Assembly: GCF_900129225.1 (NCBI RefSeq)
Contig: NZ_FQUG01000005.1
Location: forward strand, 124,001-188,000
Length of the DNA: 64,000 nucleotides
From: Schwartzia succinivorans DSM 10502
Lineage (GTDB): Bacteria > Bacillota > Negativicutes > Selenomonadales > Selenomonadaceae
Direction of reading: 5' to 3'
Shown in pieces: positions 36,183 to 42,275 of this stretch (position 1 is the stretch's first letter; each line of letters begins with the position of its first letter). The notes under the pieces were generated by a model that did no database searches, was not told the DNA's origin, and saw nothing but the letters and a program-made list of their open reading frames with translations. Both the position numbers and the translations under genes were made by a program.

Positions 36183-36764
36183 TCAGTACTCCGGCATCAG
36201 CTTGCCGCCGCCCGGGAGGTCATATGTCATGCCGCCGAGGATTGTGCTGGCGTTTTTCTGATAATAGATGTTATGACCGTTGCTCTGGATGTTCCTGAAG
36301 GCCAGGTCTTCATCACTGAAGCTCATGATATGGGAATCATCAGTGAGAATCCACTGAGCATCTTTTGCAAGCGTAAGCGTGACGCTTTTCGCTGTGTTAT
36401 CGGTGTTGACCGCGCCGGTCATGTGAGCACCGTTTTCAAGCTTCAGCTTCAGCGTGCTCTGGTTGTCGATAAAAATGTCCGCTCTGAAATCGGTATTGGT
36501 ATACATGACAGCATCCTTGCCGCCGAGGACGAAGACCTCCGAATCCTGATTATCGGATGAGGTGCTTCTTGGCAGCGCCGATGGAGCCGCAGAAGATGTT
36601 GTCTTTGTGATTTCATTATCAAATCCCGATGCTGAGGCTTCTGATGGGCTGTAGGAAAGCTGAGTGCCATAGGAAGCCGCGTGTGCGGCGGAGATAAAAG
36701 GGAAAGCTGCGGCCATGGACATAAGAAGGCCGGCGGCAATTGTTCTGCAGGGTTTACGTTTCAT
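36183..36764 (-). CDS. Secreted beta-strand-rich protein of unknown function
   Basis: A 193-residue protein with a signal peptide (about 1-29, ending AHA), a Ser/Thr-rich segment (about 35-75), and a repetitive beta-strand region (NQSTLKLKLENGAHMTGAV and DAQWILTDDSHI). These short strand-turn repeats resemble one or two coils of an autotransporter-type beta helix. It has no barrel domain, so it is either a free secreted protein or a fragment of a larger adhesin. The start follows GGAAGGAG on the minus strand. Confidence 0.7.
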   Translation of the reverse strand: MKRKPCRTIAAGLLMSMAAAFPFISAAHAASYGTQLSYSPSEASASGFDNEITKTTSSAAPSALPRSTSSDNQDSEVFVLGGKDAVMYTNTDFRADIFIDNQSTLKLKLENGAHMTGAVNTDNTAKSVTLTLAKDAQWILTDDSHIMSFSDEDLAFRNIQSNGHNIYYQKNASTILGGMTYDLPGGGKLMPEY

Positions 36765-36941: not shown

Positions 36942-38849
36942 TTATTCTATCTGACGTCCTGCGCCCGGACCGTCGTTTGCGACGGAAACACGCGCCTCTG
37001 CGAAGGTCTTCATGTCGTTCAGCATGTGAAGGGCAGCATCAACTATCTTTATGCCGAGGCAGGCTGTACAGCCGCCTGTGATTGTCATGCCAAGCTGCAG
37101 GAGCGCAGGCTGGGTATGAAGAATGTATGGCTTCACTGCCGGGCACAGCACCTCCGCGTAGCGGGCGATTATTTCCGTGGATTCGTCGTCAAGCACTATG
37201 AGGGCATTGTTGTGGGCACCTGCTATTATGGCACCGAGAAGGGCAGATACCTCTGTCTGCAGCTCCTTCGGAGTCTTTTGGAGAAATTCCGAGGCTTCGT
37301 AGCGAAGGCTGCCGTCCTCATTTAAAAGGGATTTTCGAAGCTTTGCGGCCTTTGTACCAACGGCATCATCGGGAGCTGATTCGGTAAGCGCAACCCCAAG
37401 AATCGGGTCCGAAAAGGAAAGGGCCTCTCCGATTTCACGGCCGAAGTCAAAGGCCTCGGTGAGAGGACGGTCTTTCCTGAGGTGTGCAATAGTGACACTT
37501 GCACAGGCGTGACGCGCGAAGGACGAGGTCAGCTTGTTCTGCGCCTCACTGAGCTCTCCGGTGGCAAAACAGAGAAGAGAACGTCCGGTGTCCAGGCCCG
37601 GGCGTTCATCGTCAACAATACCTGCCAGTTCTACGGCGATTTCCTCAAGGAAACCAAGGCTGTAAATCGGCTTTGCAAGGTTGTCTATACGGAGTTTGCA
37701 TGCTTCCATTGCAGGCTTTGAAAGCGTCGGAAAGGTATTGAGGTAGAAGTCAAAGGTTTTGTCCGTGATTGGAAGCGACTTCGGCGGCATTGTTTCGTGA
37801 TAAAATTCCGGGGTATCATCACTGTCCGAGAGGGATTTGTAGGCCATGACGGCAGCATCAAGAAGGTTGACGGCGATAGATGAACCGGTGGCCTCCCCAA
37901 GGCGGAACCGCATGTCCATATAGGGGCTGATTCCCAGCTTTTTGAGCATTGCCTTGTGGGCAGGCTCTGCGGCGAGATGTGAGCCCATGAGATAATGTGG
38001 TGTCAGCGGTGCTAAACTCTGGGCAATGAGCGCGGCTGCGCCCGTGTTAAAGCCGTCGATGACGACAAAGGTGTGATGCGCGGCGGCACCAAGGATGATC
38101 CCTGTGATACAGCCTATTTCAAAGCCGCCTACCTTCATCAGAACATCAAGACCGTCATCGGGGTTCGGTTTGTTTATCTCAAGAGCCTTTCTGACTACCT
38201 CGATTTTAAGCTTCAGCCTTTCGTCGGAGATATTGGTTCCGCGGCCTGTTGCTTCTTCAGGAGTCAGCCCGCAGAAGGCTGCGGCAACACATGCGGATGA
38301 GGTGGTGTTGGCGATTCCCATTTCCCCCGGGAGAAAGCAGCAGGTTCCTTTTTCCGCGCATTCAGTGGCAAGCTCTATACCTGTCTCTATTGACTGTATG
38401 GCCTGTTCCCGTGTCATGGCAGGGCCTGCAGCGCAGTTTTTGGTTCCAAGGGCAATTTTTTTATGAATAAGCCCTGGAAGCTGGTCGGTAGGAGCCGCTA
38501 TGCCGAGGTCAGCAACAAGAAGCTCGGAGCCTGCGAAATTTGACAGGGCGTTTGCAACAGCACCCCGTGAGATAAGATAGTTTTCTGTCATCTGCACGGT
38601 GGTTGACGGTGGATATGCGCTGACCTTCATTTCCGCTACTCCGTGGTCGGCACAGCATATTATTGTTGTCTTTTTTGGAGGCTCGGGATGGTCTGAAAGA
38701 GTGATTCCCGCATATTTCAGGAGCAGCTCCTTGAGACCGCCGAGCCCTGTCTCGTCACCTATGGTGCAGTCAAGCTTTGAACGTATGTGCTCCACCGCTT
38801 CGGCGCTTGGGGGCTGTATTTTTGCTATTGTATCTTCAAGTAATGACAT
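36942..38849 (-). CDS. Tandem CobT-CobT fusion; candidate lower-ligand phosphoribosyltransferase (ArsAB-like)
   Basis: A 635-residue protein, nearly twice the usual CobT length of about 350. Residues 1-345 are a complete CobT domain: ADHGVAEMKVSAYPP (about 68-81), GEMGIANTT (175-183), and the catalytic Glu319 in RLGEATGSS. Residues about 380-615 form a second, diverged CobT domain (LRIDNLAKPIYSLGFLEE and LCPAVKPYIL are family landmarks), where the catalytic Glu is replaced (GGCTACLG, Gly593) and the GEMGI loop is lost. CobT activates the cobamide lower ligand from nicotinate mononucleotide. Paired CobT homologues ArsA and ArsB do this for phenols in Sporomusa and Veillonella. No B12 riboswitch is seen upstream. 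Confidence 0.88.
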   Translation of the reverse strand: MSLLEDTIAKIQPPSAEAVEHIRSKLDCTIGDETGLGGLKELLLKYAGITLSDHPEPPKKTTIICCADHGVAEMKVSAYPPSTTVQMTENYLISRGAVANALSNFAGSELLVADLGIAAPTDQLPGLIHKKIALGTKNCAAGPAMTREQAIQSIETGIELATECAEKGTCCFLPGEMGIANTTSSACVAAAFCGLTPEEATGRGTNISDERLKLKIEVVRKALEINKPNPDDGLDVLMKVGGFEIGCITGIILGAAAHHTFVVIDGFNTGAAALIAQSLAPLTPHYLMGSHLAAEPAHKAMLKKLGISPYMDMRFRLGEATGSSIAVNLLDAAVMAYKSLSDSDDTPEFYHETMPPKSLPITDKTFDFYLNTFPTLSKPAMEACKLRIDNLAKPIYSLGFLEEIAVELAGIVDDERPGLDTGRSLLCFATGELSEAQNKLTSSFARHACASVTIAHLRKDRPLTEAFDFGREIGEALSFSDPILGVALTESAPDDAVGTKAAKLRKSLLNEDGSLRYEASEFLQKTPKELQTEVSALLGAIIAGAHNNALIVLDDESTEIIARYAEVLCPAVKPYILHTQPALLQLGMTITGGCTACLGIKIVDAALHMLNDMKTFAEARVSVANDGPGAGRQIE

Positions 38850-40937: not shown

Positions 40938-42275
40938 TTAGAAGACCCAGTGCATCATGAAGTTCAGTCTTGTGGGAGGAACCTTTTCGTCTACGATGTC
41001 ACGTTTCAGAGGTACTCCGAGAGATACTGAAGCGATAAGGCCTTTGTTTGAATACGTGAGTCCGACACCGGTACTGAGCATTGTGGAATTGTCGCTGTTT
41101 CCCATGGCGGTGCCGTATATGCGTCCACCGTCTACAAATGTAAAGGCAGACAGATGGCGGGATTTTTCGACGGGAACCGAGTATTCTACGCTCGCGGCAA
41201 AGCCTTCATCACCGTGGAGCATGCTTTCCTTGTAGCCGCGGACGCTGTTCATTCCACCGAGATAGAAACGCTCCATTGATGACATCTGGCGGCGGTTTGT
41301 AAGCTGCCCGTCAAAGCGGGCTTTAAGCTTTTGCCCGTGCTCGTAATCCTTTTCGTAAAAGGCATTCAGTTCATATTTGATGTAATGCCGATGCCCGAAG
41401 GAAAGAGTGCTTTCGTTCCCGAGGACAAGGCTGTGCTTGTGGTAGAGCACCGTGCTGTCTGTGTAATGTGTTACTGCTATATAAGGAGACCAGCGGTGAT
41501 ACTGGGTATCAAGCACTGTTTTTCTGAAGAGGCCCATGGCAGGGAAAACCTTACCCATATCAGTACTCATTCGGCCGTAGAAATACTGCAGACCTGCCTC
41601 CGTGCGCAAATCACGGGTGCTCATGACCGGTGTTCTTAGGGTTACGACAGCCGCTTTGGAATGACCGTTGACATCTCTTGCGCGCATGGCTCCGTAGACA
41701 AGGTTGTTCGCAGAAGAAATGAAAACGAAATCTGCGGAGGAACCTTTTTTATCAAGGGGCAGGCAGTATTCGAGCGCGCCGGTGTCAAAGCCCTGGGCGC
41801 GGAACCATTCCATGGTAAGGCGGTCTTTGTTTCCTGAGAGACTGCGGTTCGTGTAGATGACTCCTTCACGCATCATACCTGTGGAATCGCTGAAGCCGGC
41901 GTTGTCAACATGCAGGGTAAATGTTTCGCTTTTTGGAGGCTTTGGCCTGTTTGGCGGCATTGAGCCGGAGGGTGTGCCGCTGTTCACGGAAGCGGAAGGT
42001 GGTTTTGTACCCTCGGGTTTTTGCTGCATGCGGCGCATGGCGCGGTCTTTTCCAATCTGTTCGCGAAGACGTGCAAATTCCAGCATGTAGCGTGTGCGGA
42101 ACAGCTGTATTCCTGAGCGGTCTCCTGCGCCTGTACCGGCAATGGTAAGATCCATGATATATTCAGGAGTAGGCGGCCCTGCCGCGAGGGCGGTATCTGA
42201 TACCCCGCTAAGAAGCATAAAGGCGGCCAGAGCCGCGGGGATTTTTTTCATGTAATATTTTGCTTTTGTTTTCAT
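40938..42275 (-). CDS. TpsB/ShlB-like outer-membrane barrel lacking POTRA domains
   Basis: A 445-residue outer-membrane protein. A signal peptide (1-32, ending ALA) is followed by about 100 residues of charged and proline-rich sequence (for example PPNRPKPPKSE), not a POTRA fold. A ShlB-type barrel follows from about residue 120 (HVDNAGFSDSTGMMREGV) to the final MHWVF. The loop-6 signature YLGGMNSVRGYKES is clear. FhaC/ShlB proteins normally have two POTRA domains that recognise the TPS domain; these are absent here. No TpsA gene is adjacent, so its cargo is unknown. Confidence 0.8.
   Translation of the reverse strand: MKTKAKYYMKKIPAALAAFMLLSGVSDTALAAGPPTPEYIMDLTIAGTGAGDRSGIQLFRTRYMLEFARLREQIGKDRAMRRMQQKPEGTKPPSASVNSGTPSGSMPPNRPKPPKSETFTLHVDNAGFSDSTGMMREGVIYTNRSLSGNKDRLTMEWFRAQGFDTGALEYCLPLDKKGSSADFVFISSANNLVYGAMRARDVNGHSKAAVVTLRTPVMSTRDLRTEAGLQYFYGRMSTDMGKVFPAMGLFRKTVLDTQYHRWSPYIAVTHYTDSTVLYHKHSLVLGNESTLSFGHRHYIKYELNAFYEKDYEHGQKLKARFDGQLTNRRQMSSMERFYLGGMNSVRGYKESMLHGDEGFAASVEYSVPVEKSRHLSAFTFVDGGRIYGTAMGNSDNSTMLSTGVGLTYSNKGLIASVSLGVPLKRDIVDEKVPPTRLNFMMHWVF

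Follow-up and report, generated by a model that had tools for sequence, protein, structure and literature searches.

A single gene in the 64,000-nucleotide stretch of Schwartzia succinivorans DNA analyzed here (the window) most likely encodes a fused form of ArsAB. The protein would act as a nicotinate mononucleotide:phenol/p-cresol-type phosphoribosyltransferase, activating the base that becomes the lower ligand of a cobamide, and in its single chain the ArsA half would supply the chemistry and the ArsB half the lid of one composite active site. We put the probability of this reading at roughly 80%. ArsAB and its role in phenolyl-cobamide formation are already known; what appears to be undescribed is the single-chain form, with a second half that probably serves only as a lid, and how widely this form occurs. 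No fused ArsAB was described in the literature that we searched, and papers beyond that scope may exist.

One reading frame joins ArsA to ArsB

The list of open reading frames contains a frame of 635 codons on the minus strand, which runs from an ATG start at position 38849 down to 36942. The features of the gene, all on the minus strand of the window, are as follows.

36942..38849, minus: fused arsA-arsB gene, 635 amino acids plus stop codon
38856..38861, minus: AGGAGG, resembling a ribosome-binding site, upstream of the ATG
37830..38849, minus: ArsA half, residues 1 to 340, complete CobT fold with catalytic loops
38589..38615, minus: residues 79 to 87, including Tyr79 and Met87, which align to Ser80 and Gln88 of Salmonella CobT
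38313..38327, minus: GEMGI loop, residues 175 to 179, the Glu174 region of Salmonella CobT; kept in the fused family
37893..37895, minus: Glu319, equivalent to the catalytic base Glu317 of Salmonella CobT; invariant
37767..37829, minus: linker, residues ∼341 to 361, pLDDT ∼79 to 89
36945..37766, minus: ArsB half, residues ∼362 to 635, pseudoenzyme half with shortened catalytic-loop region
37668..37673, minus: Lys393-Pro394, corresponding to the CobT motif KPpGSLG; kept in the ArsB half and no longer present in the ArsA half
37071..37073, minus: Gly593, at the catalytic Glu position of the ArsB half
36957..37019, minus: C-terminal tail NDMKTFAEARVSVANDGPGAG, residues 611 to 631, kept in ArsB halves and absent from fused ArsA halves

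The 635-residue protein matches the Pfam family DBI_PRT in three stretches along its length, and its NCBIfam name is CobT (TIGR03160; score of 392.6 bits, cut-off 319.3). A preliminary description of this DNA had proposed two tandem CobT domains, a first half with all expected residues, and a fused enzyme of the ArsAB type. Indeed, the protein consists of two CobT-fold halves, and the C-terminal half alone scores above the Pfam cut-off (73 bits, E value of 3.5e-20, cut-off 22.6). Searching the halves separately, as that description had suggested, gave ArsA as the best match of the N-terminal half (365 bits with Sporomusa ovata ArsA and 215 bits with the best CobT) and ArsB as that of the C-terminal half (95 bits with S. 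ovata ArsB, compared to 37 bits with the best CobT and 15 bits with ArsA). The N-terminal half is 49 to 50% identical to S. ovata ArsA and was placed within the ArsA clade of the tree, together with Sporomusa and Veillonella ArsA. We thus conclude that the protein is an ArsA-ArsB fusion, arranged as the split genes are.

The equivalents of the catalytic Glu317 and Glu174 of CobT, Glu319 and Glu176, are found only in the N-terminal half, where the expected GEMGI loop is present; this half has neither the Lys-Pro motif nor the C-terminal tail. The residue check likewise confirmed that the second half has Gly593 at the catalytic position and no GEMGI loop, ALTESAPD standing in its place. The suggestion that this half keeps the landmarks of the fold could be sustained for the Lys-Pro motif (residues 393 and 394), a thinned Rossmann core and the tail (residues 611 to 631), but not for the catalytic-loop stretch of CobT (profile positions ∼80 to 207), which has been cut from ∼130 to ∼53 residues. 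Across 65 aligned fused proteins, the strictly conserved residues of the C-terminal half are Leu391, Lys393, Pro394 and Glu402 close to its beginning and, in the tail, Met613, Phe616 and Val621. Both catalytic positions are still occupied by Glu in the unfused ArsB of Sporomusa, which marks the dead second half as derived. This half is not decaying, as dN/dS values in close pairs (∼0.03 to 0.15) revealed similar purifying selection on the ArsA and ArsB halves. Relatives in dozens of independent genomes, those of isolates among them, carry the entire frame without interruption.

An AlphaFold2 model of the whole chain was confident in both halves together (pLDDT of 95.2, pTM of 0.94), indicating that the halves have a defined arrangement. 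Its best structural matches were ArsA chains (Z score of 53.7).

The two halves have lost complementary pieces

We took a census of motifs in 118 A/B pairs, including 69 fusions in which the B half is short and 41 split pairs with a full-length B subunit. In the former group, the A halves invariably carried the equivalents of Glu174 and Glu317 (69/69 for each) and never the Lys-Pro motif or the MxTF tail (0/69 for each). Their B halves were the reverse, with Lys-Pro in 68 and the tail in all 69, Glu174 in 1 and Glu317 in 5. Among the split pairs with a full-length B, every B subunit had both Lys-Pro and the tail (41/41 for each), while Glu317 was present in 39 and Glu174 in only 13 of the 41; the A subunits had both Glu residues in all 41 cases, Lys-Pro in 8 and the tail in 6. 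Three short split B proteins apparently lacked the tail only because the sequence stops inside them. The counts for the split pairs thus place the division of labor before the fusion, and the retention of Lys-Pro or the tail by some split A subunits indicates that the decay was stepwise. The split ArsB genes L036, L038, L067 and L146 also lack the catalytic-loop region, and shortening of ArsB is therefore independent of fusion.

The fused protein of Pectinatus is reduced further, its ∼470 to 478 residues comprising a whole A half and 142 to 144 residues of B, with the Lys-Pro segment, the tail and little more. In the model of this protein (pLDDT of 94.7, pTM of 0.95), the B remnant is all helical, with no Rossmann strands. 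Instead, it is the A half that is truncated at the loci L060, L106, L107 and L127, where its own N-terminal piece is missing; no convincing trace of this piece could be detected in the upstream DNA examined. L127 (positions 230 to 1462) encodes 411 residues, with an A half that lacks the N-terminal lid piece and a B half of ∼120 residues, and is in effect a permuted one-site monomer. At L094 (positions 202 to 2391, genome G102), ArsA and ArsB share a reading frame with a single stop codon between them, one step from fusion.

A single composite active site is proposed

Cheong et al. reportedly described, in 1999, a "small domain" of CobT in connection with the neighboring subunit. Our statements on the ArsAB and CobT interfaces are based on PMC9561151, on PDB entry titles and on sequence. 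The base pocket of Salmonella CobT is built from components of both chains (PMC9561151), and the CobT homodimer thus contains a pair of reciprocal sites, in each of which one chain contributes the loops and the other the lid. In the fused protein, the Rossmann domain and every catalytic loop (GEMGI, GTxN..GPAMT and Glu319) would come from the ArsA half. The single pocket of this half would be closed by two parts of the ArsB half, its N-terminal Lys-Pro segment and its C-terminal tail. The second, reciprocal pocket would have been abandoned, and its loops (in B) and lid pieces (in A) would have decayed. The observed complementary decay fits what is expected if only the site made of A loops and a B lid is kept. 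Judging from these patterns of conservation, each chain probably has one active site, with the ArsB half as the lid donor.

Substrate and genomic context

By homology with ArsAB, phenol and p-cresol would be the substrates of the fused enzyme. Tyr79, Met87 and Met177 stand where Salmonella enterica CobT has Ser80, Gln88 and Leu175, and they match the changed residues of the CobT variant S80Y/Q88M/L175M, which was crystallized with p-cresol (PDB 4kqj). These residues point to a phenolic substrate but are suggestive only: some CobT-like proteins of the class that occur singly also have Tyr or Phe at position 80 and Met at positions 88 and 175, so that these residues do not prove phenol specificity. 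Furthermore, ArsAB was also crystallized with dimethylbenzimidazole, according to PDB entry titles, and the enzyme may therefore accept benzimidazoles.

The host genome (2.66 Mb, estimated to be 100% complete) encodes CbiC and CobU near each other on one contig, CobS, CobD and a GHMP kinase together on another, and a methylmalonyl-CoA mutase. No second CobT-family gene was found in it. The check for bluB and bza genes proposed in the preliminary description was carried out, and neither BluB nor any Bza homologue scored over the cut-off in this genome; a match to the BzaB model (627 bits) was a canonical ThiC, which scored higher with ThiC models. With no other CobT, BluB or Bza, the fused gene is the only visible base-activating enzyme of the genome. 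ThiH and HydG are enzymes that release p-cresol from tyrosine. As a possible source of p-cresol, neither was detected over the cut-off in the genome, so that a phenolic base would need another source; the weak matches obtained proved to be HydE. This HydE (G000:C13:257449-258180), in a genome with no HydG or ThiH over the cut-off, would be unusual if an FeFe hydrogenase is matured in the host.

The fused gene is isolated, with the ATP synthase region on one side and a GGDEF/EAL gene on the other. No cobamide gene adjoins it in the window, and a conserved neighborhood of cobamide genes was seen neither here nor in S. ovata or Propionispira; a 725-residue Propionispira neighbor considered as a methylmalonyl-CoA mutase had an S1-type match only. 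Neither a cobalamin riboswitch nor another Rfam element was detected near the gene, the only Rfam match in the window being a tRNA. Flanking the region are an outer-membrane protein of the Omp85/ShlB type and a short protein that has a signal-like N terminus and no Pfam match (window positions 40938-42275 and 36183-36764, respectively; minus strand).

Alternative explanations

The gene might instead encode a fused CobT that activates imported dimethylbenzimidazole or other benzimidazoles and not phenolics, with the fusion and the dead half serving stability only. This would agree with the NCBIfam assignment to CobT (TIGR03160), with the crystallization of ArsAB with dimethylbenzimidazole and with the ThiH/HydG search, which gave no phenolic source in the genome. 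However, the halves are nearer to ArsA and ArsB than to CobT, the N-terminal half falls inside the ArsA group of the tree next to the Sporomusa and Veillonella proteins, and the genome has no BluB or Bza over the cut-off, so that we regard such an enzyme as unlikely. A still less probable view is that the ArsB half does not close the active site but acts as a regulatory or scaffold domain that binds a corrinoid, a metabolite or a partner. In most lineages the B half does retain a thinned Rossmann core, which is more than a lid would need; yet its invariant residues sit in the Lys-Pro segment and the tail, exactly the pieces missing from the A half, and the B half of Pectinatus has dispensed with the remaining parts. 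That the frame is an artifact, whether a frameshift, an assembly join or a decaying duplicate, can be given almost no weight: the length of 635 residues is odd beside the usual 350 residues of CobT, but an intact frame in dozens of independent genomes, including isolates, and the low dN/dS of both halves speak against such an origin. We therefore favor a single-chain ArsAB with the ArsB half as its lid.

Distribution, origin and significance

Of 120 related genomes, 114 contain a match. The fused form is widespread in the Selenomonadaceae, where it was found throughout the family, and it extends to several other families of the Negativicutes, with single sampled genomes in f5, f7, f10, f14, f16 and f17. 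By name, the carriers of fused forms are Schwartzia, genomes labeled Megamonas, Propionispira, Propionispora, Anaerovibrio, Massilibacillus and Pectinatus. On the A-half tree, the fused proteins with a short B half require five changes of state, of which well-supported branches force four. An AU test on this tree rejected a single origin of the fusion (p = 6e-5), with reversals to split genes counted together with gains. The group of the window's gene forms one clade with Pectinatus (SH-aLRT support of 98).

A stepwise collapse might have led from intact pairs through eroded ArsB and repeated fusion to the lid-only ArsB of Pectinatus and finally to the 411-residue protein of L127. We would give even odds to the broader proposal that in the Negativicutes a two-site heterodimer collapsed stepwise to a one-site chain and that the fused Selenomonadaceae are major unrecognized makers of phenolyl cobamides in the rumen and gut. 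The series of intermediates allows a direct test of which parts of a partner subunit a shared active site needs.

Phenolyl cobamides make up 20 to 34% of the cobamides in the bovine rumen and 16% of those in human feces, and only S. ovata and Veillonella parvula are listed as proven producers (PMC8123684). In a survey of 11,000 species, arsAB was defined as two adjacent cobT genes and assigned to 27 species (PMC6461909); the part of the survey list reprinted in PMC8123684 includes none of the fused carriers named above. Here, one open frame of 635 codons takes the place of two adjacent separate genes, and a survey based on that rule would miss fused genes, since it needs two of them. The rule is one of detection and not of function. 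Nor is the protein a single CobT chain of ∼350 residues that unites the loops, the Lys-Pro motif and the tail, as these features are divided between its two halves. Given the spread of fused genes across the Selenomonadaceae, a family rich in rumen genomes, our analysis suggests that many gut and rumen bacteria able to make phenol-type B12 have been overlooked by gene surveys. If fused ArsAB makes phenolyl cobamides, missing producers would be located and predictions of the sharing of B12-type cofactors would be altered.

Comparison with known systems

As in the fused protein, the ArsAB of S. ovata (PDB 4hdk, 4hdm, 4hdn, 4hdr and 4hds) combines an ArsA-like and an ArsB-like CobT homologue in the same order, but as two chains rather than one. 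S. ovata ArsA resembles the fused A half in lacking the Lys-Pro motif and the tail, and S. ovata ArsB has in common with the fused B half the tail NDMKTF..A.V.VA.DGPGA. The S. ovata ArsB keeps both catalytic Glu residues, whereas the fused B half has lost both, together with the catalytic loops. V. parvula, also a member of the Negativicutes, has two genes and a full-length ArsB, in which the Glu of the GEMG motif is already lost (GNIGERAFL) while Lys-Pro and the tail are kept; it also carries a separate CobT (PMC8123684).

With S. enterica CobT (PDB 1d0s), the fused protein has in common the fold, the catalytic Glu and the GE(L/M)G loop. The Salmonella enzyme, however, is a homodimer of identical chains of ∼350 residues with two reciprocal sites, in contrast to the single chain described here. 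A BluB/CobT2 fusion is known from Propionibacterium freudenreichii (PMC4657239). That protein is likewise a single chain containing CobT, but its CobT is joined to BluB, which makes dimethylbenzimidazole, and not to a second CobT homologue as in the fused ArsAB.
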